DNA from: a virus
Virus record (IMG/VR): IMGVR_UViG_3300046616_000269
Location: 1-64,000 of that record
DNA: 64,000 nucleotides
Strand: one strand, 5' to 3'
A model generated the notes under the pieces. That model did no database searches and was not told where the DNA came from. It worked only from the letters and a program-made list of their open reading frames with translations. The translations under genes and the position numbers were made by a program. Shown one piece after another: positions 1 to 41,031 of the stretch; position 1 is the first letter of the stretch; every line of letters begins with the position of its first letter.

Positions 1-24
1 GCGGCCCCAGACATCCGGGGCCGC
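1..24 (-). terminator. Hairpin terminator candidate after the major capsid gene
   Basis: An 8-bp perfect stem (GCGGCCCC at 1-8 with GGGGCCGC at 17-24) lies 25 bases past the capsid stop. A second perfect palindrome, AAAACCCGCGGGTTTT at 35-50, overlaps the capsid stop codon. Read leftward, any U-tract after the GC stem would fall outside the window, so terminator function is inferred from position and stem strength only. Confidence 0.5.
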
Positions 25-48
25 TTTCATGGCTAAAACCCGCGGGTT

Positions 49-1239
49 TTAGATGCCGTCGCGATACGCGAAGGTTTCAGGGTAGACCACTTCCACCACG
101 CCCAGGCGCTGGTAGTACACCGTCTTGTGGTAGATGCTGTCGAACTGGGTTGGAGTCCGTTGCATCGTGGTCATCGGGAAGCGGACATATTGCATGTCCT
201 TGTTGTAGGCGACCATGCGGTCGACCGTGCCCGGCGTGCCGATCGTGCCACCGGCGCCAGCGCCCACCAGCCACTTCACAGGGGCGATGATGATGTTGCC
301 GTTGCCGCTGTTCTTGATCATGTTGTTTTCAAGAATGAAGCGCAGGATCGAGATGTTGCCGGCAGTGCTGACCGTGTTGGCGTTCAGGTAGCCGTACTGC
401 TCTGGCGGCATCAAGATCCGGTTCGGCAGGGTCGACCAGCCGCTGGCAGCCCAGGCGCTCATGATCAGGGCGTTGATGTCCGCCAGGATTTCGTTGGGCG
501 TCTTCAGGGCGAAGCGGGGCGAGCCACCGGCGCCATTGGGCACGTTGCTGACGTTGGTCACGGCCGGGTTGTTGACGAGGCCGCCGACGTTCAGGGTCGA
601 GTCGCCCACGTAGACCTGCTCGTCGATGTCCATGGCGTTCTTCAGCTTCAGGGCCTGGAACTTCTGGTCATCGATGGGGCGGCCCATCTTGGCTGCGCTT
701 TCCAGTTCGAGGATGGAGAACTTGATCTCCAGCGCCCACGGGGTCAGCGGATTGGCGACCTTGCCGGTATCCACGCCGACGCCACCGATCTGGTCGGTCG
801 CCTTGCCGATCCAGGCCTTGCCGTTGCGGATGCCGTTGCCGGTGCCCAGGTTGCCGGCGCTGCCGAAGGCGGTCAGCGTGAAGCTGGACACTTCATCGGC
901 GAGCGTGACGTCGGTACGCAGGTCGATGTCGCGGCTCCAGGTGACTGCCGACAGCGGCAGATGCAGCGTCTGGTCCAGGCGCTCGAGTTCGCCGATCAGG
1001 AAGGCGCCGGTGCTGTCCACGGTGCGCACGCCATCGTGCGTCTTGTAGGCATGGTCCAGGGTCTTGCCGCGCATGTTGCCCATGGCATCCAGGGGCGCCA
1101 CGCCCATCAGGGCGCTGTCGAAGGTCTGGTGGTCGCGGGTGCGTGCGCGGATGATGGCGGGCGCGTTCGCGGCGGCCGATGCGCCGGTGCCTGCCAGGAT
1201 GGCAAGGGCGAACTTGCTCAGAGATGGATTCTTGCTCAT
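49..1239 (-). CDS. Major capsid protein (DUF2184-like)
   Basis: Main shell protein of the head, 396 aa. It shows the layout of DUF2184 capsid proteins: an N-terminal region preceding FDSALMGVAPLD, a middle section beginning VTWSRDIDLRTD, and a C-terminal beta-rich part ending in YYQRLGVVEVVYPETFAYRDGI-type sequence. The first ~27 residues (MSKNPSLSKFALAILAGTGA...) are hydrophobic and look like a signal peptide; in a capsid protein this is more likely a cleaved or unusual N-arm. The start is supported by AGGA about 10 bases upstream in the recurring leader CTAGGAAC. It follows the cement-protein and DUF2213 genes, the usual head-gene order. Function is inferred from family resemblance and context. 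Confidence 0.8.
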   Translation of the reverse strand: MSKNPSLSKFALAILAGTGASAAANAPAIIRARTRDHQTFDSALMGVAPLDAMGNMRGKTLDHAYKTHDGVRTVDSTGAFLIGELERLDQTLHLPLSAVTWSRDIDLRTDVTLADEVSSFTLTAFGSAGNLGTGNGIRNGKAWIGKATDQIGGVGVDTGKVANPLTPWALEIKFSILELESAAKMGRPIDDQKFQALKLKNAMDIDEQVYVGDSTLNVGGLVNNPAVTNVSNVPNGAGGSPRFALKTPNEILADINALIMSAWAASGWSTLPNRILMPPEQYGYLNANTVSTAGNISILRFILENNMIKNSGNGNIIIAPVKWLVGAGAGGTIGTPGTVDRMVAYNKDMQYVRFPMTTMQRTPTQFDSIYHKTVYYQRLGVVEVVYPETFAYRDGI

Positions 1240-11434: not shown

Positions 11435-13404
11435 AGCAGGCCGGCCCCGCGCATGTTGCTGATGCCGCAGGTGTTGGTCATCTGCAGCAAGATAAACAGC
11501 TGGGCAGTGGTTGGGCCGCTGTAGTTGTGCAAGGTCGTCCAGGTGGCGCCGCCATCCGATGAAACGCGCGCACTCAGTTGACCGGCGCCGTCGCGGAAGA
11601 TGCCGTACTTGTCGCCGTTGGCGATGGCCCGGCTTGCGACCACGTTGCCGGCGATACCAACACCATTCTCCTTGATGTTGTAATTGCCGCTGCCATTCGA
11701 TGCGATCGTGCACAGCGTATTGGCGAAGATATCAGGCGCATTGACGGTGTCCATGCTGATGTTGGGAATCGCCTCCCCCGTCACATAGCCGACCAGTTGG
11801 CCGTGAACCTCTGCCGCCGCCCCAGCCGGGAAGGACTTGTTAGCCGTTCCCCACTGGTCAGCGATGTAGCTGCCGCCAACGCTACCGAAGTAGGTGCGGC
11901 CCAAGGTATCGTCGCCCTGCGAAGTCACGCCGCTGGTGTTGACCAGCACCGTCACAGGGTCGCCGCCACCCAGCACGTTGTTGCTGATGTAACGCGCGCT
12001 GAAGCTCGCCACAAAGTTCCCGGCAGCATCTTGCAGGCGGCCAGTCCCAGGCTGCGTGTAGGCCAGCGTGATCTGGGCATTTGCGGCATACGGTGTGTCC
12101 ACCGTAATTTCCAGGTTGCCGCCATTCAGCGCCACGCCCGTAATCGTCTTGCCAGCTGCCGTGAATGCCGAGATGGCCGGCACGCCAGTCACCAGCGGCT
12201 CGCTGAAGACCATGATGATCTTCGACGTATTCGCTGCTGCCACCTGGGCGCCCTGCGGCGTAGGCGGCGTCGTATCGGATGCCGATACGTTGTTCGTGAC
12301 GGCAAGGCTTGCAACGTTCGCCAGCAGATTCCCGGCCAGGTCCTTCAGGTTGCCGGTTCCAGGCTGCGTATATGCCAGCGTCCGCGCGGCTTCGCCATTG
12401 ACGAAAGCCGGAGTCACCGTCAGGTTGCAGGCGGTGGCGCTGGCAAAGGCGACGGCCGAGATCGTGTGCCCGGCGATTGCAAAGGCAGATGCAGCAGGAA
12501 TGCTGGTCTGGTCCATGGCTTCGCTGAACAGCAGATTGACGACTGTCGGCGATGCATCTGCAACTGTCGCACTGGTCAAGGTGGGTGGCGTTGCGTCGGC
12601 AGCAGCGATGTTGTTGGTCACGCTGGTCGAGAAGTTGGCGGTCTGGTTGCCTGCCACGTCTTGGATGACGGTGCCAGAGCCGGGCTTGGTGTAGCTGGCC
12701 GTGATGACATCACCGTTGGCGTATGGCGTATTGACCGTCAAGTTGATGACCGAGCCAGCATATGCCACGCCAGTCACGGTCTTGCCGCCACTGACAGCAA
12801 AGGCGCTTGCAGCTGGTGGGCTGCCGGCCAGCACTTCGCTCATCTGCAAGGCAATGACTGATCGCGCTGCGTTCGTGACTTGCGCCGACGAAACTGTTGG
12901 CGGTGCCGTATCTGGGGAACCAACGGCAACGGGCGCCAGAGACTGCATCCAGGCATAGTAGTACTGCAGGCCGTTGAAGCGCATGATCAGTTCATTGACG
13001 ATGCCCGCGCCGCTATTGAAGCCAGCGTTGTTGCCGTCTTGCAGGAAGCCAACATCGAACAGCGGCGTAACGACGCCGTTGCCGACAACCGTCATGGATG
13101 TCGTCGTGTTACGGCTGGCGCCGGTGGGGTTGATCGTGAACGTCAGAGGTCCGTCAAGGTACTTGATACCCATGTCCGCGTTGGCATACGTGAACGGGAT
13201 GGACGTATCGAACGGGATGACGGTGACGGCGCTGGTGTCCTGCCAGACAACGCCATCACAGCGATAGGTGGCAAAGGGCGCGGCGGCGCCGATAAGCGCG
13301 ATACGGCCCGCGTAGGCCAGACCGGGCGGGTAGCTGGCAATCAGCGCCGACAGCGTGGCGAACGGGCCAAGCACGCCGGAGGAAGAAGGGTTGTAGATAG
13401 GCAT
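11431..13404 (-). CDS. Tail fibre/adhesin with three SwmB-like repeats
   Basis: 657 aa. Residues ~165-470 contain three tandem ~100-aa Ig-like repeats, each beginning D-x-x-P-P-T, passing a FSE/MSE motif, then AASAFAV-type, a YTxPGxG block and an xxDxAGNxxAxF block, ending TNN; this matches the SwmB/Big-type adhesion repeat. The first ~160 residues (MPIYNPSSSGVLGPFATL) are the likely virion-binding part. The last ~185 are beta-rich (SFPAGAAAEVHGQLVGYV) and may be the receptor or carbohydrate domain. With the adjacent SGNH-like gene it forms a surface-recognition locus. Confidence 0.7.
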   Translation of the reverse strand: MPIYNPSSSGVLGPFATLSALIASYPPGLAYAGRIALIGAAAPFATYRCDGVVWQDTSAVTVIPFDTSIPFTYANADMGIKYLDGPLTFTINPTGASRNTTTSMTVVGNGVVTPLFDVGFLQDGNNAGFNSGAGIVNELIMRFNGLQYYYAWMQSLAPVAVGSPDTAPPTVSSAQVTNAARSVIALQMSEVLAGSPPAASAFAVSGGKTVTGVAYAGSVINLTVNTPYANGDVITASYTKPGSGTVIQDVAGNQTANFSTSVTNNIAAADATPPTLTSATVADASPTVVNLLFSEAMDQTSIPAASAFAIAGHTISAVAFASATACNLTVTPAFVNGEAARTLAYTQPGTGNLKDLAGNLLANVASLAVTNNVSASDTTPPTPQGAQVAAANTSKIIMVFSEPLVTGVPAISAFTAAGKTITGVALNGGNLEITVDTPYAANAQITLAYTQPGTGRLQDAAGNFVASFSARYISNNVLGGGDPVTVLVNTSGVTSQGDDTLGRTYFGSVGGSYIADQWGTANKSFPAGAAAEVHGQLVGYVTGEAIPNISMDTVNAPDIFANTLCTIASNGSGNYNIKENGVGIAGNVVASRAIANGDKYGIFRDGAGQLSARVSSDGGATWTTLHNYSGPTTAQLFILLQMTNTCGISNMRGAGLL

Positions 13405-15185: not shown

Positions 15186-15234
15186 CGTTAGCTGGCCGGG
15201 TATACCAGCAATATCTAATGGATACGTAATATAG

Positions 15235-15256
15235 GTGAAAAATACAAATTTTTCAC
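15235..15256. promoter_or_regulatory. AT-rich perfect inverted repeat
   Basis: GTGAAAAAT (15235-15243) and ATTTTTCAC (15248-15256) around ACAA. It resembles the TGAAAAATATTTTT core of the promoter elements at 19.9 and 22.55 kb, so it may bind the same regulator or act as an UP-like element. Confidence 0.35.
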
Positions 15257-15275
15257 TTTGGCCTGAAAATAATTT

Positions 15276-15545
15276 TTACAGGAAGGCCCATATAAGGGCG
15301 CCGCAGCCCCCAGCCAGGACTAGGCCCAGGGTCCACCACATCTGACGCTTTTCTGCCCTGGCTGCTTCCTGCAGCTGGTTCTCGACGATGTCGCGGCCGT
15401 CGATGATCTGGATAGATAGCTGCAGGCTGCTGATGTGGGCTTCCAGGTCAGCCGGCACGGCCTTGCCCTGGGCCATGAGCCCGTGGCGTTCGGCCAGCAG
15501 GCCATTCAGCTGGGCCTTGATGCCACGCAGGTCATTGTTGGTCAT
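15276..15545 (-). CDS. Tail-anchored small membrane protein
   Basis: 89 aa. Residues 1-65 are a charged heptad-like helix (coiled coil, with AQLNGLLAERHGLMAQGKAV); residues ~70-89 form a single hydrophobic segment (WWTLGLVLAGGCGALIWAFL) at the extreme C-terminus. The topology is N-in tail anchor. Its start overlaps the previous gene by 4 bases. It could be a holin-like or superinfection-exclusion factor; no family recognised. Confidence 0.6.
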   Translation of the reverse strand: MTNNDLRGIKAQLNGLLAERHGLMAQGKAVPADLEAHISSLQLSIQIIDGRDIVENQLQEAARAEKRQMWWTLGLVLAGGCGALIWAFL

Positions 15546-17575: not shown

Positions 17576-18607
17576 TTAGACGACTAGCGCTTCAAAGGCC
17601 TGCCGCTTGAAGGCATCACCGCGGCCGAACCATGCCGAGTCCAGGCGCGTGTCATCGGTGCGGCCCATGCTGTGGTCCACGTGCTCCGTGACGGCGTTCA
17701 GCAGGCCCCAGCGCGTGCCCTTGGCGGTCTTCATGTTGGCGCCCATGCCGCCGCCATCGAATAGGTCAAGGATGGTCGCCACGATGCGGTTATCGGGGTC
17801 GTCGACTGGCTTGCCCAGATCCATCAGGCCGCCCATCCATGACAGGTCGGGTTTCTTCACATCCTTCTCCTTCGGCGGCGCGAAGATGGCGGCCAGCAGG
17901 ACGCGGGCTTCTTCCATGTTGATGGGGGTGTCCGCCATTTCCCGCGCCCGTTCGACGTAGGCAGCAAAGCTGTTCTGTGCCACGCCCAGGGTCCGCTTGA
18001 CGGCTTCGGGGTCGAACACCGAGCGATGGCTGATACGCAGCGCCTTCTCGTTATCTTCCAGCGCGTAGGCCAGGGTATTGGCGCAGACAACGCGGATGGC
18101 CGTAGGGGCGGCTACCGTGCGCATGCTGCCGTCCAGGCTGGTGGCAAGCAGCAGGTTCTGCATGACTTCATCCTTGCCGCCGATCTTGGCGGACTCGCCA
18201 TTACTTGCCATGGCCCAGAGCTTGCGGCCGCCACGCAGCGTGCCAGCCGTGTGGATATGCCAGCCGCCTTGCTCGGTCAGGTCGCGGAAGAACTCAAGGA
18301 CTTCGCGCGGCTGGACCTTCTGGTAGTTGGCGCCGACGATGGCGAGTGGCTTCAGGTTATCGCTGCGCCAGATGGCCTGGTGGTCTTCGTACTCGATCAG
18401 CTGGGGCTTGCCGCGCACGCTGTCGACGGCCGGAATGAAGACCTGCGGCACGCCGCTTTCTGCCGTCCAGTCCATGCCTGCTTCCTTTGCCCAGACGCCG
18501 ATGCTGGCGCCCTTGGTGATCTGCTGGCCGAGTCCATGCCAAGGGGTCTCGCCAACAAACGCCATTTCGGCGCGGCCGTTCGCGCGGAGAGTTAATTCAT
18601 GTGCCAT
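17576..18607 (-). CDS. DUF932 phage/plasmid protein
   Basis: 343 aa matching the DUF932 layout: GETPWHGLGQQITKGASI at the N-terminus, IANYQKVQP-like AIVGANYQKVQPREVLEFF, TLRGGRKLWAMAS, VCANTLAYAL, and C-terminal TRWGLLNAVTEHVDH. The family is widespread on phages and plasmids; its biochemical role is unknown. AGGAG precedes the ATG. It is the last gene before the terminator at 17527-17552. Confidence 0.85.
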   Translation of the reverse strand: MAHELTLRANGRAEMAFVGETPWHGLGQQITKGASIGVWAKEAGMDWTAESGVPQVFIPAVDSVRGKPQLIEYEDHQAIWRSDNLKPLAIVGANYQKVQPREVLEFFRDLTEQGGWHIHTAGTLRGGRKLWAMASNGESAKIGGKDEVMQNLLLATSLDGSMRTVAAPTAIRVVCANTLAYALEDNEKALRISHRSVFDPEAVKRTLGVAQNSFAAYVERAREMADTPINMEEARVLLAAIFAPPKEKDVKKPDLSWMGGLMDLGKPVDDPDNRIVATILDLFDGGGMGANMKTAKGTRWGLLNAVTEHVDHSMGRTDDTRLDSAWFGRGDAFKRQAFEALVV

Positions 18608-19450: not shown

Positions 19451-19813
19451 TCAGCCTTGGTAGGCGCGGGCGTAATCTTCGCGGTCATCATCGCTGTCGC
19501 GGTCATCGTCCAGGTCGCCTTCTTCTTCCAGTGCTTGCATGGCGCGGGCTTCGTCGTCGCGCGGCGCGTACGTAACTGGTTCGCCGTTGTTGCAGATGTC
19601 TTCGCAGAGGTCGTTCATGCAGCCTTCTTCAAGTTCTTCCAGCATGCCGGGCAGCATGTCGAGTTCTTCCTGCAGGTCGGCGGCGCGGATGCTGATCAGC
19701 GGGCCGTGCGTTGCGGCATCCAGCAGGTCCAGCTTGCGGATGGCGGCGGCCAGCAGATGCGCCTGAACTCCGGTCAGCTTGATTTCGTAGGCCTTCTTGA
19801 TGTCTGTGTTCAT
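19451..19813 (-). CDS. Acidic hypothetical early protein
   Basis: 120 aa. The N-terminal part is a helical, hydrophilic domain (YEIKLTGVQAHLLAAAIRKL); the last ~50 residues are strongly acidic (LEEEGDLDDDRDSDDDRED). It is the first gene after the promoter-like element at 19844-19907 and so heads an early leftward unit. Acidic small early proteins are often host-takeover factors or DNA mimics, but this is not demonstrated. Confidence 0.65.
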   Translation of the reverse strand: MNTDIKKAYEIKLTGVQAHLLAAAIRKLDLLDAATHGPLISIRAADLQEELDMLPGMLEELEEGCMNDLCEDICNNGEPVTYAPRDDEARAMQALEEEGDLDDDRDSDDDREDYARAYQG

Positions 19814-19843: not shown

Positions 19844-19907
19844 GAATTCTAACCTGTCTTTATAAAGATTCCCAGCGTCTTCCAGCTGAAAGTAAAAATA
19901 TTTTTCA
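19844..19907 (-). promoter_or_regulatory. Early promoter/operator element, copy 1
   Basis: Shares three blocks with 22497-22562: GAATTCTAACC (19844-19854), the palindrome TCTTTATAAAGA (19857-19868), and a 25-base block from CAGCTGAAAG to ATTTTTCA (19883-19907). Read leftward it lies 31-94 bases before the gene at 19813. The AT-rich block may be an UP element; TCTTTATAAAGA is a possible -10 or operator. Confidence 0.55.
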
Positions 19908-19916
19908 CAACAAAAA

Positions 19917-19935
19917 AGCCGCTCTACGGCGGCTT
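19917..19935 (-). terminator. Leftward terminator overlapping the stop of the zinc-finger gene
   Basis: AAGCCGC (19917-19923) with GCGGCTT (19929-19935); on the minus strand followed by TTTTG. The stop codon at 19924-19926 lies in the loop. It insulates the promoter at 19844-19907 from upstream transcription. Confidence 0.65.
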
Positions 19936-20070
19936 GGCGGGTGGCTTCTTCTTGGCGTCTGGATGCAGGCAGGCGTAAAGCGTGCCGCAGACCGGGCAGC
20001 GCTGCCCTGCTGGGGGCTCTGGGCAGGGCTGGTGGTAACGCTTGCTGCGGTGGTCCTGCCGCTTCTTCAC
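19924..20070 (-). CDS. Small zinc-finger-like protein
   Basis: 48 aa, GTG start inside the stop of the previous gene (GTGA overlap), with GGGGG upstream. The sequence CPEPPAGQRCPVCGTLYACLH gives C-x8-C-x2-C-x5-C plus His, a plausible single zinc site; the tail is basic (PDAKKKPPAKPP). Too short for routine gene calling but well supported by coupling and the adjacent terminator. Confidence 0.55.
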   Translation of the reverse strand: MKKRQDHRSKRYHQPCPEPPAGQRCPVCGTLYACLHPDAKKKPPAKPP

Positions 20071-20495
20071 TTCTGCCCCCAGCTGGTAGAAGCAGCGACC
20101 TCGCGTCGTACCATCTCATCAAGGAACTCGTTGGCATCTTCCCGGCTCCAGCGCGATACACCGGTCAGGAACGGCAGGATGGCGCCGCCGCACATGCTGC
20201 GTACGAAATCCCGTACGGCTGCATCATCGCGTTCGCCCTGCCTGCGGATGGCGGTCGTGGCGTCGAACATGCAGACCTTCGTGCGACCGAGTATGCGCAG
20301 CAGCTCGCGGCGTTCGGCGGCCAGCTGGGGGTTGTAGGTTCGGGGGTCGGGCGAATCGACCTGCTCGATGTTCGCGGTCTTGGCGCCAGCCGGGTCGGCC
20401 ATCACAGCCAGAAGGATGGCAAGGAGGATTGCAGCGCGCAGCAGGATTCCGTTCATGAAGCGCGAGATAGCTGCGATGGCAGGTGGTTTGATCAT
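20067..20495 (-). CDS. Exported or membrane-anchored small protein
   Basis: 142 aa from MIKPPAIAAISRF. Residues ~14-38 (MNGILLRAAILLAILLAVMA) form a hydrophobic signal peptide or anchor followed by ADPAGAKT, a plausible cleavage area. The mature part is charged and helical (AAERRELLRILGRTKVCMF; RDDAAVRDFVRSMCGG). A periplasmic role is inferred. No family recognised. Confidence 0.6.
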   Translation of the reverse strand: MIKPPAIAAISRFMNGILLRAAILLAILLAVMADPAGAKTANIEQVDSPDPRTYNPQLAAERRELLRILGRTKVCMFDATTAIRRQGERDDAAVRDFVRSMCGGAILPFLTGVSRWSREDANEFLDEMVRREVAASTSWGQK

Positions 20496-20496
20496 T

Positions 20497-20727
20497 TCAG
20501 TCCTTCGAGTTGAGATCGTAGTGGGCGACATCGATAACGATGCACAGGCGGTGCGGATACGTGCTCTGCAGAACGATGCCGCGGTTCAGCTCCTGGGGCG
20601 CATTGCTGACGGTCAAGAGGGCTTCCAGGGCGGTTCCCAGCATCTGGTGTAGGCGCTGGGCTTCTTCCAGGCCCAGGCGTACCTCTGCCTCCGTTGGCTT
20701 CGTCCGGGGCTCGCTGTTGATGCGCAT
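20497..20727 (-). CDS. Small hypothetical protein
   Basis: 76 aa, MRINSEPRTKPTEAEV.... One amphipathic helix (EEAQRLHQMLGTALEALL) and a beta-like end (GIVLQSTYPHRLCIVIDVAHYDL). Packed tightly between its neighbours; function unknown. Confidence 0.6.
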   Translation of the reverse strand: MRINSEPRTKPTEAEVRLGLEEAQRLHQMLGTALEALLTVSNAPQELNRGIVLQSTYPHRLCIVIDVAHYDLNSKD

Positions 20728-20728
20728 G

Positions 20729-21028
20729 TCAGTCTTTCTTGAATGGTGATGGCGTGAATTCCAGGTCCTTCCAACCCAGGCCTTTGTAGTTGCTGCGACA
20801 GCTCTTGCAGTCATGCCCGACGATGACGTGGTCCTTCAGCTCGTAGCAGCCGCCCAGGGTGTCGCCAAGCTGTTCCTGGCAGCGGGCGCAGTTAATGTAG
20901 CCGAAGCAGGATGTCACGATCTTGCTGTGCCCTATCAGGGCGCAGACGATCTTGTTGCGCTGATCGTCTGGCAGAGCACCAAGGGCCTTCAGCTTCTTGG
21001 CTAGTTGCTTTTGCGAGATGTCTGGCAT
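20729..21028 (-). CDS. Small Cys-rich (zinc-binding candidate) protein
   Basis: 99 aa. The N-terminal 35 residues are a helical, Lys/Gln-rich segment; the C-terminal half has cysteines in INCARCQEQ and HDCKSCRSNYKG, a likely zinc ribbon. It follows the ParB-like gene by 3 bases. Function unknown. Confidence 0.6.
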   Translation of the reverse strand: MPDISQKQLAKKLKALGALPDDQRNKIVCALIGHSKIVTSCFGYINCARCQEQLGDTLGGCYELKDHVIVGHDCKSCRSNYKGLGWKDLEFTPSPFKKD

Positions 21029-21031
21029 GGC

Positions 21032-22009
21032 TTAGAACTTCAAGTCGATCTTCAGGCCGGCTGCTGCCTTCAAGGCTTCCAGGGCGCCGAAGGTTGCAGC
21101 GAGTGCCAGCTTGTCGTCTTCCTGCACCCACTTACGCACATCGAAGTCCAGGGGCTTCTTGGCATCCGTCAGGCACTTCGCCATGGCTTCGGCAAGGGTC
21201 TTGCCGAGTTCGGAAAGCTCGGCATCCGACAGCGCGCGCATCTTCAGCGTCTTGCCCTTCTTGGCGGCCTTGGCGCGGCGTTCCGTGTCCAGTGCCTTCT
21301 TGATGTCGGCTTTCTGGCCGCGCCCTGCGCCTGCCTTGGCCTGTTGGACAAGTTCAGCCTGCTTGCTGGCGTCGCCCTTGGCGTGCGTGGCAATCTGCTT
21401 TGCCATGGTCTTCCCGATGCTGCCATCAGCGACCGCGGCCTTGACGCTGTCATCGGCGGCCATCAGATTCAGGATCTCCGTTACATGCATGGATTTCCGG
21501 CCAACGGCTGCGCAGATCTGCTTGATGGTCATGCCGGCTTCCTTCATCTTGCTGTAAGCCATGGCTTCTTCCAGCGGCATGAAGGGCTTGCCGTCGTTCG
21601 CCACAAACATCTGAATCAGGCTGGTTACTTCATCCTGCGCCTTATCCACGATGATGGCTGGCACGCCTTCGGGAAACTCGTGGCCGGCTTTCAGCAGCTT
21701 CTCGATGGCCGTTAGGCGGCGGTCGCCGTCCACCAGCTCGAACAGCTTGCCTTCCGGCGTGGCAGCGATGCGCTTGACGCGGATGGGGTTCAGCATGCCG
21801 TTCGCCTTGATGCTGGCGGCAAGGCCTTCGATGTCGCCGAAGTCGAAGCGCGGGTTAAAGCCATCCTTTCGGGTGATGGCGTGGGGGTCAAGGAAGAAGG
21901 CGCTGCTGCGCTTGGCGATGCCCGCCGCTTCCTTGCGGGCTGGGGCCGCCTTGGCGGATTCCTGGGCGCTGGCGATGGCTTCGGCTGCTTGCTTGGATGC
22001 GTCGGTCAT
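21032..22009 (-). CDS. ParB-like DNA-binding protein
   Basis: 325 aa from MTDASKQAAEAIAS (GGAGATTAC upstream supports this ATG). The ParB/Srx-like core is visible: NPRFDFGDIEGLAASIKANG, PIRVKRI and ELVDGDRRLTAIEKLL, followed by an HTH segment (MTIKQICAAVGRKSMHVTEIL). The C-terminus is Lys/Ala-rich with a final helical domain. Virulent phages carry such proteins as site-specific DNA binders or nucleases; no ParA partner is seen, so plasmid-style partitioning is unlikely. Confidence 0.75.
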   Translation of the reverse strand: MTDASKQAAEAIASAQESAKAAPARKEAAGIAKRSSAFFLDPHAITRKDGFNPRFDFGDIEGLAASIKANGMLNPIRVKRIAATPEGKLFELVDGDRRLTAIEKLLKAGHEFPEGVPAIIVDKAQDEVTSLIQMFVANDGKPFMPLEEAMAYSKMKEAGMTIKQICAAVGRKSMHVTEILNLMAADDSVKAAVADGSIGKTMAKQIATHAKGDASKQAELVQQAKAGAGRGQKADIKKALDTERRAKAAKKGKTLKMRALSDAELSELGKTLAEAMAKCLTDAKKPLDFDVRKWVQEDDKLALAATFGALEALKAAAGLKIDLKF

Positions 22010-22052
22010 TTTGTAATCTCCGTTGGGTTTGCTGTGCCGGGAAAATCCCCGT

Positions 22053-22072
22053 CTAAGCCCGCCTGGGCTTAG
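22053..22072 (-). other. Hairpin between two genes
   Basis: Perfect 8-bp stem CTAAGCCC (22053-22060) / GGGCTTAG (22065-22072) with a 4-base loop, but no immediate U-tract. It may attenuate expression of the ParB-like gene. Confidence 0.35.
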
Positions 22073-22082
22073 GCTGGAACTT

Positions 22083-22463
22083 TCAGATTTCAACCGGATA
22101 CGTTGCGCGGTGGTTGCCCTGCAGATTCCAGAGCTGGCCGGGGCCGAAGTAGCCAGCTTCGATGTGGCCGCTGAGCCATTTGCCCATGTTGGCAACAACT
22201 TCGTTAGGGCCTGCCAGCAAGGGCTGGTTGCGGATTTCCACGATTTCAAAGCGGGCGCCGTGGTTGCAAACGACATCCCCAATTTTCAGTTCCGTGGCTT
22301 TCTTCATCTGGGTGGGGGCGATAACTTCGCCCCGGGTCGTTACGCGCCAGCCTGCTTTGATGGCCTTGGCGAGCAGCTTCTTGGCGCAATCCAGCTTGGT
22401 GGCGCTAGTTGCTTCGTTGCCGTAGATCGTGGCGGCTGCTGCTTGGATAGTTGCGTATTTCAT
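22083..22463 (-). CDS. Hypothetical early protein
   Basis: 126 aa, basic. MKYATIQAAAATIYGNEATS opens a helix-rich N-terminus; ELKIGDVVCNHGARFEIVEIRNQ in the middle looks like a small SH3/KOW-like beta fold. First gene after promoter-like element copy 2 (22497-22562). Function unknown. Confidence 0.65.
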   Translation of the reverse strand: MKYATIQAAAATIYGNEATSATKLDCAKKLLAKAIKAGWRVTTRGEVIAPTQMKKATELKIGDVVCNHGARFEIVEIRNQPLLAGPNEVVANMGKWLSGHIEAGYFGPGQLWNLQGNHRATYPVEI

Positions 22464-22496
22464 GGAAGGCCTTTCAGGTTAATTGCTGCGGTGATT

Positions 22497-22562
22497 GAAT
22501 TCTAACCGTCTTTATAAAGACTTGTCACCACCAATTTCAGCTGAAAGTAAAAATATTTTTCA
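22497..22562 (-). promoter_or_regulatory. Early promoter/operator element, copy 2
   Basis: GAATTCTAACC (22497-22507), perfect palindrome GTCTTTATAAAGAC (22508-22521), and the 25-base CAGCTGAAAG...ATTTTTCA block (22538-22562), identical to copy 1 apart from the spacer (16 instead of 14). It lies 34-99 bases upstream of the gene starting at 22463. Confidence 0.55.
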
Positions 22563-23514: not shown

Positions 23515-23901
23515 TTATGCCGCGGTACGGCGTCGTTCTTGGCCCCGTGTGGGCGAGAGTCGTTCAGCCAACTTGCGGCCGAAGTCGGGCTTGGCTTTCG
23601 TCATGGTCTTCTTACCGCTACTAGCAGCTGGTGCATCCTTTTTCTTGGCGGCTACCGTGGGCTTGGGTCCGGGCGTGCTGGCGCCAACGGCCTGGGCGGC
23701 GGCTACGCTGAACTTCAGGCCGTGTTCTTTTGCCCAGGCTTTGATGACGGCCGGATCGAAGCGGACGCCGTAGCCAGGATGCTCGGCAACAGGCAGTGCT
23801 GTCTTGCCGGGGGTGCCCTTGCGCCAGTTGCTGATGGTCACGGCGCTGACGCCGAAGCCCGCGCAGAGTTGCTTGGTGGACAGGAAATTTTGCTTGGTCA
23901 T
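23515..23901 (-). CDS. Helix-turn-helix DNA-binding protein at the divergence point
   Basis: 128 aa. Residues 6-30 form an HTH (FLSTKQLCAGFGVSAVTISN then WRKG), with a second helix FDPAVIKAWAKEH; this Nu1/MerR-like fold is usual for small phage DNA binders. The C-terminal half is Lys/Ala/Pro-rich and disordered. It is the first leftward gene from the divergent region facing queE, where an early regulator would sit. Alternative: a second small-terminase-like protein. Confidence 0.65.
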   Translation of the reverse strand: MTKQNFLSTKQLCAGFGVSAVTISNWRKGTPGKTALPVAEHPGYGVRFDPAVIKAWAKEHGLKFSVAAAQAVGASTPGPKPTVAAKKKDAPAASSGKKTMTKAKPDFGRKLAERLSPTRGQERRRTAA

Positions 23902-23933
23902 TTTGACGCTCCGGTTGAGTTGATCGAATTTGA

Positions 23934-23947
23934 ATTATATAAAGATT
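23934..23947 (-). promoter_or_regulatory. Leftward promoter with shared 14-mer
   Basis: Read leftward the sequence is AATCTTTATATAAT, containing a perfect TATAAT about 33 bases before the HTH gene. The same 14-mer occurs on the plus strand at 30217-30230. No good -35 was seen. Confidence 0.55.
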
Positions 23948-30216: not shown

Positions 30217-30230
30217 AATCTTTATATAAT
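30217..30230 (+). promoter_or_regulatory. Rightward promoter with shared 14-mer
   Basis: AATCTTTATATAAT, identical to the leftward 23934-23947 element. TATAAT ends at 30230, only 9 bases before the ATG at 30240, so transcription would start within a few bases of that codon. Confidence 0.6.
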
Positions 30231-30239
30231 TTCCCCAAC

Positions 30240-31928: not shown

Positions 31929-32483
31929 ATGCATACCCCAGTCTATGACGGCCCCATCGCAGGCTACGTGGTCAACTTCATCCGCAAGAACCAATGGCGG
32001 ACGGCGCGGACCCATGAGTTCGATGACCTGAAGCAGGAAGCCTACATTGTCTTCATGCGGGTCGCCGAGAAGTACCCCGACATGGACACGCCGCAGCACT
32101 TCATGGCGCTGTTCAAGATGGCCTGGACGAACCACTTCACGGACTTGGCGAATAAGCACACCAACCAGAGCTTCCAAGTCCAGATGCCGGTCTACCGCGG
32201 TGAAGACGGCGAAGAGGCCATGGAGATGGATATGGCCGGCGACCTGAATAACGACGGCGAGCTGGCAGTCCTGCTGAACGAGGCCCCCAGCGAGGTCGTG
32301 GCCGTCTTGAATCTTTTTTTGTCCGCACCACAGGAAATCTTGGATATGGCGCTGGCATCGTGGCGGGGCCGCGATAAAAGGTGCAAAACCGGCGGCAGCA
32401 GCAAGATCTGCCGGCTGCTGGGCCTGCCCCAAGACTGCGACGTGATGCAGAAGGTCCACGACTATTTTGGAGGTCGCCACTAA
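31929..32483 (+). CDS. Sigma-70 region 2-like transcription factor
   Basis: 184 aa. Residues ~15-75 match sigma region 2: HEFDDLKQEAYIVFMRVAEK with YPDMDTPQHFMALFKMAWTN, i.e. the E-F-D-D-L-x-Q-E core helix and the aromatic -10 binding helix. The C-terminal half has an acidic linker and a helical end but no clear region 4. It could direct host RNA polymerase to phage middle/late promoters. AAGGA precedes the ATG. Assignment rests on pattern resemblance. Confidence 0.55.
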   Translation: MHTPVYDGPIAGYVVNFIRKNQWRTARTHEFDDLKQEAYIVFMRVAEKYPDMDTPQHFMALFKMAWTNHFTDLANKHTNQSFQVQMPVYRGEDGEEAMEMDMAGDLNNDGELAVLLNEAPSEVVAVLNLFLSAPQEILDMALASWRGRDKRCKTGGSSKICRLLGLPQDCDVMQKVHDYFGGRH

Positions 32484-33629: not shown

Positions 33630-34532
33630 ATGAAGAAAGCACTTGTCGTCCTGAGTGGCGGCCAGGATTCGACGACCTGCCTTGCCATCTGCATGGCGCT
33701 GCTGACCAAGGGCAGCATCGATGCCATTGCCGCCGTTACCTTCGACTACGGCCAGCGCCACGTCCGCGAACTGCAGGCAGCCAAGGACATCGCCGAACTC
33801 TGCGGCGTGACCGAGCACGAGATTGTCCAGGTCGGCCCCATCCTGGCAGGCACCAGCCCGCTGACTGACCCCAACCAGCCGCTGGAGCAATACAAGGACT
33901 TCGCCAGCATGGACGCCATCATCGGCGACCGCGTCGAGAAGACGTTCGTGCCGATGCGCAACGCGCTGTTCCTAACTCTGGCCGCCAACCGCGCCGTCTG
34001 CATGGGCGCCACGATGATCGTCACCGGTGTCTGCGAGGCCGACAACGCCAACTACCCCGACTGCCGCCAGGACTTCATCTACTCACAAGAGCGGACCATC
34101 AACGAAGCACTGGGCTTCGACCGCGGCGATGAGCGCTACATCCACATCTGGACTCCGCTTATGACGTCCAGCAAGGCTAAGTCCATCGATATGCTGATGG
34201 AACTCGGCGTCAACGCATTCGCGCTGCTGGCCTTCTCGCATACGGCCTACGATGGCGCCTACCCGCCGGTCGGCAACGATCACGCCACACTGCTGCGCGC
34301 CGAAGGCTTCCGGCAGGCCGGCGTTGCCGATCCGCTGATCGTCCGCGCCGCCATGGACGGTTTGATGCCTTACCCAGGCACCGAGAACTACGACGCCTAC
34401 CATGCCCGTCAGCAGCTGGGGGTTAAAGACAGCGAGCTGCAGTTTGCCATCAAGGCCCATCAGGCGCGTCTGCAGGCAGGCGCCATCCGCCGTCACAACG
34501 CAGCCGTCGACTTCAGCAAGGCGGTGCAGTGA
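33630..34532 (+). CDS. queC: QueC-like preQ0 synthase lacking the zinc cysteines
   Basis: 300 aa (usual ~230). Converts 7-carboxy-7-deazaguanine through an amide to preQ0 using ATP and ammonia. The PP-loop SGGQDS is intact (residues 9-14), as are FDYGQRH and FVPMRNALFLTLAA. The C-terminal zinc block of classic QueC (T-C-Y-N-G...C-G-x-C-P-x-C) reads TAYDGAYPPVGNDHATLLRA, so all four Cys are replaced (A, V, D, T). The trailing AGVADP-type motif is retained. A ~50-aa C-terminal extension is extra. Overlaps folE. Confidence 0.88.
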   Translation: MKKALVVLSGGQDSTTCLAICMALLTKGSIDAIAAVTFDYGQRHVRELQAAKDIAELCGVTEHEIVQVGPILAGTSPLTDPNQPLEQYKDFASMDAIIGDRVEKTFVPMRNALFLTLAANRAVCMGATMIVTGVCEADNANYPDCRQDFIYSQERTINEALGFDRGDERYIHIWTPLMTSSKAKSIDMLMELGVNAFALLAFSHTAYDGAYPPVGNDHATLLRAEGFRQAGVADPLIVRAAMDGLMPYPGTENYDAYHARQQLGVKDSELQFAIKAHQARLQAGAIRRHNAAVDFSKAVQ

Positions 34533-38415: not shown

Positions 38416-41031
38416 ATGGCCTTTTTCTTCAATGAGTCCAAGAAGGAGGCCGCCAAGCCGAAGGCTAAAGCGGTCACCAAGCGCAGCAACGCAGTCGTCC
38501 CCATTGCAAGCCTGCAGAAGATGGGCTGCGCGGCTTGCCCGCGCGATAAGGACGACTCCTTGCTGAGTCCGAAGATGGAGCCCAGCGGCAAGAAGGGCGC
38601 CCCAGTCTACCTGCTGGGCGGCAACCCCAGCAAGGCCGAAGACGAAGACAACATGCACTGGACGGACAAGGCCGGGCAGATGATCGCCAGCAAGTTCGGC
38701 GGCAAGTTCATGAAGTCCGAAGTCCGGTCTAACTTCATCACGCAATGCAGGGGCGCCGACACCGAAGTGGAAATCGAGTGCTGCCGCAACCGCATCGTGG
38801 CCGACATCGAAGCCGCGCAGCCGCTGGTCATCGTCACGATAGGCGATGCCGCCATGCGCTGGGCGGTCAAGTTCGGAACGCCAAGCAAGCACAGCGCCCT
38901 GAATCACCGCGGCGCGCTATTCGTCGTCAAGATCGGCCGCCACGTCTGCTACCTGATGCCGCTGCTGTTCCCTAACTTTGTCTTCAAGAAGAGCTTCAAG
39001 AAGTCGGAGTACGAGTTCACCCTGGAACACGACATCAAGCGCATCAAGGCCCTGGTTCAGCGCGATGACCTGCCGCCTGCCCACGTCTATGAAAAGCCAT
39101 ATGACGCTGGCGTCGAACTCATTACCGGCAACGAGCCCGGTGACATGCAGCGGCTGCAGCTGGCCCTGCAAGATCTGGCAGCCGAGCCAGACGTCGGCCT
39201 GGATCTGGAAACCAATGGCCTGCGGCCTTACTTCCTGAAGGACCCGAAGATCTGGATGATTGCCATCGGCACGTTCGAGCGCACCATCGTCTTCCCGCTG
39301 GATCATCCCGAAGGCTGGGGGACGGAAGGCAGGCGCCGGCAGGTCTGGTCGCTGGTGGGGGAGTTCCTGATGAACAGTGGCCGCAAGCAGGCCCACAACC
39401 TCGCCATGGAGATGGAGTGGCTGTCCTACTTCTTCGGCCCCGCGATTTTGCGCAAGACCGAGTGGGAAGACACCATGGCAATGGCGCATACGCTGAACGA
39501 GCAGCCCGGCACCAAGGCGCTGGGAACGCAGACCGTCATGCACTTCGGCTTCGATGTCAAGGCGCAATCCAATATCGACGTCAAGCGCATCCTCGAGTAC
39601 CCGCTGCGCGACACGCTGCGCTATTGCGGCATGGACACCAAGTGGACCAATAAGCTGGCGCGGACTCTGATGCCACTGGTGCGGGCTGAGAACCTGGCCG
39701 AGTACGAACGCAAGGTCCGGCTGGCGTCGACTCTGATTCTGACGGAGGCGAAAGGCATGCCCGTCGACTTCAAGTACGTCGATGACCTGCGCGAAACGAC
39801 CGAGACCACGCTGAAGGACATCGAAGGCAGGCTGCGCAGGACGCCTGAGATCAAGGAGTACTCGTCGCGCTTCGGCACCTTCAGCCCCACGGCACCTGCG
39901 CACGTTCTGAAGCTGCTGCGCGACGTCTGCAAGCGGACCGAGATCGTCGTAGAAGATCGCGACGGCAGGCGCGAGACGACGGGCGAAGAAGAACTGTCGA
40001 AGATACCGGCGGCCGAAGTGCCCAGCGTCCCGCTTATCTTGGAACACCGCGCCATGTCCAAGATTCTGGGCACCTACATCCTGCCCCTGCATAACCGCGA
40101 GATCGTCTGCCCAGATGGCAGGGTGCGCAGCAAGTACAGCAGCATGACCGCCGTCACCGGGCGCCTTGCCAGTGAAGACCCCAACGTGCAGAACTTCCCG
40201 AAGCGTAAGCACAAGGAAGTGCGTGGCGCCATCTACGCGCCGCCTGGGTGGTGGATAGCGGCCCTAGATTACGGCCAGATCGAGTTCCGGGTCGTCGGCA
40301 TGGCATCGGGTGACCCTGCCATCGTCGAGGCCTGCTGGACCGGTTATGACGTGCACAAATTCTGGGCCGAGCGCATCGTCGCACTCTACCCAGGCGCAAA
40401 GGACTGGATTGTCGAAACCTTCGGCGTCGACTGGGATGAGAAGGGCCTGAAGACGCTGCGGCAGGAAGCCAAGAACAAGTGGGTCTTCCCCCAGCTGTTC
40501 GGCGCCTCTGCCAAGAGTTGCGCGGAATCCCTGCATCTGCCCGACGATGTGACAGAGGACCTGGTGGGGGAGTTCTGGGACACCTTCAAGGTCGCCCGCA
40601 AGTGGCAGGAAAAGCTGCTGGCCGGCTACGAAAAGAATCTGTACGTGGAATGCCTGGGTGGCCGCAAGCGGCGCGGCCCCATGACGAAGGAGCAGGTCAT
40701 CAACGCGCCCATCCAGGGGACCGCCTTGGATATTGTTGCAGAGGGTATGAATGCAGTAAGCGAGCGCGCCGAAGCCGAAGACGATGCCGACCTGCAGCCG
40801 AACCTGAACGTGCACGATGACCTTTCCTTCTGGATTCCAGACCACTGCCTGACCCAGAAGATCGACATCATTGCCACCGAGATGTGCAAGCCGCGGTTCG
40901 ACTACATCAACGTGCCGCTGATCGTCGAAGCAAGCGTTGGAAGCCGCTGGCATGACCTGCACGAAATCAAGGTCTACCGCAGCAACGAACTCTTCGGCAC
41001 CCCCAACCCTTATGCGAAAGGCAAGCGATGA
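38416..41031 (+). CDS. polA: Family A DNA polymerase with N-terminal UDG-like domain
   Basis: 871 aa. Residues ~35-195: a UDG family 4/5-like domain with MGCAACPRD (C38, C41), LGGNPSKAEDEDNMH and an NFITQCR segment, but the HP(A/S) catalytic motif is altered (LFPNFVFK), so glycosylase activity is doubtful. Residues ~255-440: 3'-5' exonuclease (DVGLDLETNGLRP). Residues ~440-871: polymerase with motif A LDYGQIEFR, motif B RQEAKNKWVFPQLFG and motif C LNVHDDLSF. There is no 5' nuclease domain. Confidence 0.9.
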   Translation: MAFFFNESKKEAAKPKAKAVTKRSNAVVPIASLQKMGCAACPRDKDDSLLSPKMEPSGKKGAPVYLLGGNPSKAEDEDNMHWTDKAGQMIASKFGGKFMKSEVRSNFITQCRGADTEVEIECCRNRIVADIEAAQPLVIVTIGDAAMRWAVKFGTPSKHSALNHRGALFVVKIGRHVCYLMPLLFPNFVFKKSFKKSEYEFTLEHDIKRIKALVQRDDLPPAHVYEKPYDAGVELITGNEPGDMQRLQLALQDLAAEPDVGLDLETNGLRPYFLKDPKIWMIAIGTFERTIVFPLDHPEGWGTEGRRRQVWSLVGEFLMNSGRKQAHNLAMEMEWLSYFFGPAILRKTEWEDTMAMAHTLNEQPGTKALGTQTVMHFGFDVKAQSNIDVKRILEYPLRDTLRYCGMDTKWTNKLARTLMPLVRAENLAEYERKVRLASTLILTEAKGMPVDFKYVDDLRETTETTLKDIEGRLRRTPEIKEYSSRFGTFSPTAPAHVLKLLRDVCKRTEIVVEDRDGRRETTGEEELSKIPAAEVPSVPLILEHRAMSKILGTYILPLHNREIVCPDGRVRSKYSSMTAVTGRLASEDPNVQNFPKRKHKEVRGAIYAPPGWWIAALDYGQIEFRVVGMASGDPAIVEACWTGYDVHKFWAERIVALYPGAKDWIVETFGVDWDEKGLKTLRQEAKNKWVFPQLFGASAKSCAESLHLPDDVTEDLVGEFWDTFKVARKWQEKLLAGYEKNLYVECLGGRKRRGPMTKEQVINAPIQGTALDIVAEGMNAVSERAEAEDDADLQPNLNVHDDLSFWIPDHCLTQKIDIIATEMCKPRFDYINVPLIVEASVGSRWHDLHEIKVYRSNELFGTPNPYAKGKR

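Follow-up and report, generated by a model that had tools for sequence, protein, structure and literature searches.

Paired promoter/operator-like elements upstream of the ParB-like and DUF932 operons of a 70.6-kb phage genome suggest joint control by one phage protein

Two similar segments of intergenic DNA stand just upstream of two unrelated leftward genes in the virus represented by IMG/VR record IMGVR_UViG_3300046616_000269, raising the question of whether both genes are controlled together, and by which protein. The stretch analyzed here, referred to as the window, comprises positions 1 to 64,000 of this 70,616-base record, 6.6 kb of which lie outside it. A direct terminal repeat of about 126 nt is found at window positions 1-126 and record positions 70491-70616 (L032). 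Such repeats were also seen in relatives (127 nt in G007, about 170 nt in G002) and probably arose where the assembly of a complete circular or permuted genome overlaps itself. The phage has genes for a polymerase and a clamp of its own, for helicases and for a UvsX-like recombinase, as well as queuosine-type genes (names taken from an annotated relative). A family A DNA polymerase with an N-terminal uracil-DNA-glycosylase-like domain (residues 58-196) is encoded at 38416-41031.

Copy A (19844-19907, minus strand, 64 bp) precedes an operon running leftward from 19813 to 17576, and copy B (22497-22562, minus strand, 66 bp) precedes another running leftward from 22463 to about 19940. The first gene of operon A (19451-19813, minus strand, 120 aa) has no family match, and a DUF932 protein is encoded further downstream (17576-18607, minus strand). 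Operon B opens with a gene for 126 aa (22083-22463, minus strand) that is not related to its counterpart in operon A, and contains the gene of a ParB-like protein with ParB_N and HTH_ParB domains (21032-22012, minus strand). The elements lie 30-40 bp upstream of the respective open reading frame starts, 19813 and 22463. Immediately upstream of copy A is a rho-independent terminator-like hairpin followed by a T run (19916-19935, minus strand). Read in the direction of the genes, on the minus strand, copy A is TGAAAAATATTTTTACTTTCAGCTGGAAGACGCTGGGAATCTTTATAAAGACAGGTTAGAATTC and copy B is TGAAAAATATTTTTACTTTCAGCTGAAATTGGTGGTGACAAGTCTTTATAAAGACGGTTAGAATTC; GAATTCTAACC begins at 19844 and at 22497. 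An earlier, sequence-only reading had given the same coordinates, a shared palindrome, an identical 25-base block and the location ahead of unrelated leftward genes, all of which were recovered. Its description of the elements as near-identical was right as to similarity but slightly strong in wording, since 57 of 67 aligned gapped columns are identical. It had also proposed a search for more copies, which was run on the whole record, including the 6.6 kb beyond the window, and returned exactly two full copies and no others.

Relatives of the phage were found by several routes. Edwardsiella phage vB_EpM_ZHS (ZHS) was identified by nucleotide and protein searches, the 70-kb genome G001 with the ParB-like protein as query, and G002 and G003 by a pattern scan of a viral collection. 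The ParB-like proteins of ZHS and G001 are 57-61% identical to that of the window. Together with the window phage, these genomes gave a set of ten copies, two in each of five genomes. In all four diverged relatives, the pair occupies homologous positions, with copy B upstream of the ParB-like operon and copy A after a terminator (a similar hairpin was seen by eye in each) and upstream of the DUF932 operon. Which genes come first in these operons varies from phage to phage. The near-invariant blocks of the ten-row alignment are CTTTATAAAG and TTAGAAT; G003 has a degenerate second copy (CTATGTAAAG). Judged from this comparison, copies A and B are a real and conserved pair, and likely co-regulated promoter/operators, as the sequence-only reading had suggested from repetition. 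Since the pair recurs at the same places in the relatives, both gene sets are probably under the joint control of a single viral protein.

Several parts of the elements resemble those of sigma-70-type promoters. The -10 hexamer TAGAAT is located at 19846-19851 in copy A and 22499-22504 in copy B (both minus strand), and is present, within an invariant TTAGAAT, in 10 of 10 copies. Comparison with TTGACA at a distance of 16-18 nt gave a -35-like GTGACA in copy B (22523-22528, minus strand; 5 of 6 positions, 18-nt spacer), but 3 of 6 at best in copy A, where the -35 is unrecognizable. In three relatives the hexamer is TTGCRC or TTGCAT, again with an 18-nt spacer, and the spacer is 18 nt in most copies. 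The differences between A and B cluster in a stretch of 14-17 nt which, on the transcribed strand, is the place of the -35 region. Further upstream, both elements carry the identical 25-base AT-rich block (19883-19907 and 22538-22562, both minus strand), which contains AAAAATATTTTT and could be UP-element-like or bent DNA. No such shared 25-mer was expected by chance (0 expected), and the 70.6-kb record contains no longer exact repeat, apart from the terminal one. Copy B is among the two best sigma-70 matches between 15 and 31 kb.

Other kinds of promoter were considered and set aside. A rightward TTGATG-N16-TATAAA can be read by eye on the other strand of copy A, but it is not conserved in copy B or in the relatives, and no rightward gene follows. 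Promoters for a phage RNA polymerase are not indicated, as no RNA polymerase was found among the window proteins searched and there are only two copies. Elsewhere in the window, an inverted repeat at 15229-15278 (GTGAAAAAT..ATTTTTCAC) is very rich in A and T, similar to the AT block of the twin elements; it gives a weak match to a leftward promoter and is possibly a late promoter ahead of structural genes.

The proposed operator is the palindrome CTTTATAAAG, located at 19858-19867 in copy A and 22510-22519 in copy B. It lies within a perfect 12-bp palindrome, TCTTTATAAAGA, in copy A (19857-19868) and within a perfect 14-bp palindrome, GTCTTTATAAAGAC, in copy B. TCTTTATAAAGA also occurs at 22509-22520, against a chance expectation of 0.24, and allowing two mismatches yielded no other match. 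Because the near-invariant TTAGAAT follows 4-7 nt downstream, a distance that varies by 3 nt among copies, the palindrome falls in the spacer between -35 and -10, the place of a MerR-type operator. CTTTATAAAG is present in 9 of the 10 copies. No other 10-bp palindrome occurs in all five genomes and twice in four of them, and a whole-genome scan of the five detected no CTTTATAAAG outside these elements. A scan of the collection for CTTTATAAAG..TTAGAAT returned, beyond this phage group, only apparently chance matches in unrelated AT-rich contigs. When palindromes of any sequence directly ahead of a -10 box were counted in all genomes, their number (8, versus a shuffle mean of 4.9) did not exceed the shuffles, and the case for the operator therefore rests on homologous position and conservation.

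The two copies show concerted evolution. Upstream of the palindrome, copies of one genome are 0.69-1.00 identical, while between genomes the identity of this segment averages 0.58 for orthologous and 0.59 for non-orthologous copies. The leaders are 0.65 identical to their orthologues versus 0.52 to copies at the other position. The exact repeats shared by A and B (65 bp in G002, 50 bp in ZHS, 25 bp in the window phage) are the longest internal repeats of their genomes, terminal repeats aside. This pattern would follow from recombination between the copies or from selection that one regulator imposes on both, and the homogenization of two promoters within genomes is a clean case of concerted evolution in regulatory DNA.

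More distant genomes were reached with a conserved protein of unknown function (31929-32483; phrog_35491) as query, which has relatives in 21 viral loci, the closest 44-57% identical. By eye this protein looks like region 2 of a sigma factor, and it may be a phage sigma factor, but no member had a Pfam match, there was no PDB sequence match, and the model had a pLDDT of 48. A ParB-like match was found in five of the further genomes. In G006 and G007 the next gene after the ParB-like one is that of DUF932; in G009 and G011 the DUF932 gene is a short way downstream. G006 contains four sites of CTTTRYAAAG type (AATCTTTGTAAAGATT twice, ACTTTACAAAGAC and AATCTTTACAAAGATT), each 6-8 nt before TATAAT or TATACT, in the promoters of the ParB-like gene, of a small second gene, of the gene for the helix-turn-helix (HTH) protein discussed below, and of the gene that follows the helicase (the replication promoter). 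In G009, TTGAAA and TAGAAT are separated by a 19-nt spacer, and the palindrome AGTCTATGTATAGACT, which overlaps the last A of TTGAAA, has arms altered symmetrically to AGTCTAT..ATAGACT; a second promoter of this genome has the same leader. By eye, TTAACCTTAGGTTAA lies between TTGCAG and TAAAAT in G011, and G007 showed no clear palindrome. The absence of the same operator sequence from G007 and G011 counts against the explanation favored below.

Two regulators had been put forward for the pair, and the comparison prefers one of them. The gene of a small HTH protein (23515-23901, minus strand) lies upstream of copy B, divergent from queE, and was present in 9 of 9 genomes examined (G000 to G003, ZHS, G006, G007, G009 and G011). 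The model of its N-terminal domain is a winged helix of MerR/Xis/Nu1-like fold that ranks closest to gpNu1, RacA, CarH, SoxR, BldC and Xis proteins, at E-values that are not significant. The best profile and model matches (1j9i, 7lwr, 8dgl, 4j2n, 6ama) are all weak, the mean pLDDT is 61, no Foldseek match falls below E 0.2, and the part beyond the winged helix is disordered. Of the winged helix, dimerization helix and effector domain that make up a MerR regulator, only the first is seen, and the protein is therefore not assigned to the MerR family. Its own promoter carries the operator in G006, consistent with autoregulation by the HTH protein, as would be expected; in the window phage and most relatives there is a half-site only. 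The half-site with -10 (AATCTTTATATAATT) is found in the window at 23933-23947 (minus strand), in the HTH gene promoter, and at 30217-30231 (plus strand), downstream of the helicase gene, where the homologous G006 promoter has the near-palindrome AATCTTTACAAAGATT. These two window sites and positions 34279 and 50106 of ZHS form a second class of conserved promoters, TCTTTATATAATC, lacking a clear -35; the ZHS promoter at 34279 has the initial transcribed sequence CATCGCAAC in common with promoter copy A.

The main competitor is the ParB-like protein, which, acting like KorB or Noc, might bind the palindrome or the upstream TTTCAGCTGAAA and repress both operons including its own, the pair being parS/O_B-like sites flanking the parB operon. 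In the five genomes its gene always lies between copies B and A, its domains are recognized (HTH_ParB, 4e-10; ParB_N, 1.6e-6), and it has a GDRR/GERR box. TTTCAGCTGAAA, a perfect palindrome at 22535-22546 in copy B, has the TTTC-N4-GAAA form that we take to be that of parS and ParB/Noc sites, but it carries one mismatch in copy A and is missing from the relatives. KorB is a transcriptional repressor of the ParB family (PMC11790492). The recognition helices were compared, in a small sample. That of the ParB-like protein is most altered in G006 (QVHVSGML), which retains the operator core, and is near the common form in G009 (AHPHVTEML), whose operator is changed, so that site and helix do not co-vary. 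That of the HTH protein reads VSH in relatives with CTTT..AAAG operators, VSA in the window phage and VTP in G009 with its different operator; its difference between the window phage and ZHS despite the same operator counts against the HTH protein. Overall, the helix comparison, small as the sample is, modestly favors the HTH protein, and the inclusion of the HTH gene's own promoter in the G006 regulon also speaks against ParB. We consider control by the ParB-like protein unlikely, and the HTH protein of 23515-23901 the favored but still tentative candidate.

Explanations that dispense with a phage regulator are less probable still. The elements might be strong constitutive early promoters for the host sigma-70 polymerase, whose palindrome merely reflects promoter shape, for example an overlapping TATAAA -10; a good -10, the AT-rich block, -35-like hexamers in several copies and first genes that vary like early host-takeover genes would all suit this. 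But ordinary spacers do not show such strict conservation, the palindrome stays the same although the -35 changes from copy to copy, it lies at distances from the -10 that differ by 3 nt, and in G009 one arm has changed along with the other, making this explanation improbable. Regulation by host proteins is common in phages, and a host transcription factor might use the palindrome; yet the operator is limited to this phage group and diverges along with it, and we know of no host regulator site of this sequence, so we regard this as quite improbable. Finally, the repeats could mainly serve recombination, or be duplications that homologous recombination maintains and that play no regulatory part, which would agree with the homogenized copies and the UvsX/RecA-like recombinase of the phage. 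Conservation, however, ends at the promoter boundaries, and palindrome and -10 are retained in orthologues with diverged flanks, which leaves this the least credible of the alternatives.

The best explanation as a whole, to which we assign a probability of roughly 60%, is that of sigma-70 promoters with a spacer operator for one phage-encoded DNA-binding protein. Read from the sequences, copies A and B would serve as leftward promoters for host RNA polymerase, with their -10 TAGAAT, AT-rich upstream block and, where a -35 is recognizable, 18-nt spacer. The 10-14 bp spacer palindrome would be the operator through which the phage protein jointly controls the ParB-like and DUF932 operons, and the HTH protein may also regulate its own promoter and the replication-gene promoter via related sites. 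Given an operator between -35 and -10, and a -35 that is weak and differs among copies, the protein would act at the spacer, either in MerR fashion or as a polymerase-blocking repressor. A spacer-bound repressor and a MerR-like activator both fit, with the variable -35 leaning slightly to activation. A bolder version, which we think rather unlikely, makes a small MerR-superfamily winged helix without sensor or dimerization domains the master regulator of the whole phage lineage, acting via spacer palindromes that drift with the protein, at targets kept identical in each genome by recombination.

In the literature searched, this regulon appears to be undescribed. Phage vB_EpM_ZHS was mentioned once, in a review of aquaculture phage therapy, and nothing on its promoters was found; little is published on this group of 65-73 kb phages. 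The defined operator, the short list of candidate regulators and the conserved target promoters make the regulation testable by one gel shift.

Although the mechanism is a known, ordinary kind of regulation, none of the systems compared matches it throughout. Vibrio phage SSP002 (Mardecavirus; L048) also has near-identical AT-rich promoter-like copies with a palindrome, ACCCGGACCGGGT, in the early region downstream of its ParB-like gene, but the sequence is unrelated and the palindrome differently placed. These copies are at 11841, 12213, 14477 and 15967, some running into ACCCGGACCGGGT or into a divergent version of this palindrome, and the motif TTAGTAA is repeated all through the SSP002 early region. 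As in KorB or ParB autoregulation (RK2 O_B, plasmid par operons), a ParB-like gene stands beside palindromic promoter sites and autoregulation is possible; here, in contrast, no ParA was found in the searches made, changes in the recognition helix do not track those of the operator, and the operator does not, to our knowledge, resemble O_B. Phage Xis, lambda gpNu1 and BldC, the small winged-helix proteins that the HTH protein best, if weakly, matches, bind direct repeats for recombination, packaging or development, whereas the conserved site here is a palindrome in promoters. MerR-family promoters carry an operator dyad between -35 and -10 in a 19-20 bp spacer, and activation proceeds by DNA twisting. 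The model of the HTH candidate differs from MerR proteins in lacking a recognizable effector domain or long dimerization helix, and the spacer, where a -35 is recognizable, measures 18-19 nt (19 nt in G009), but the twin elements share with MerR promoters the spacer palindrome, the weak or variable -35, and a candidate regulator with a MerR-superfamily-like winged helix.
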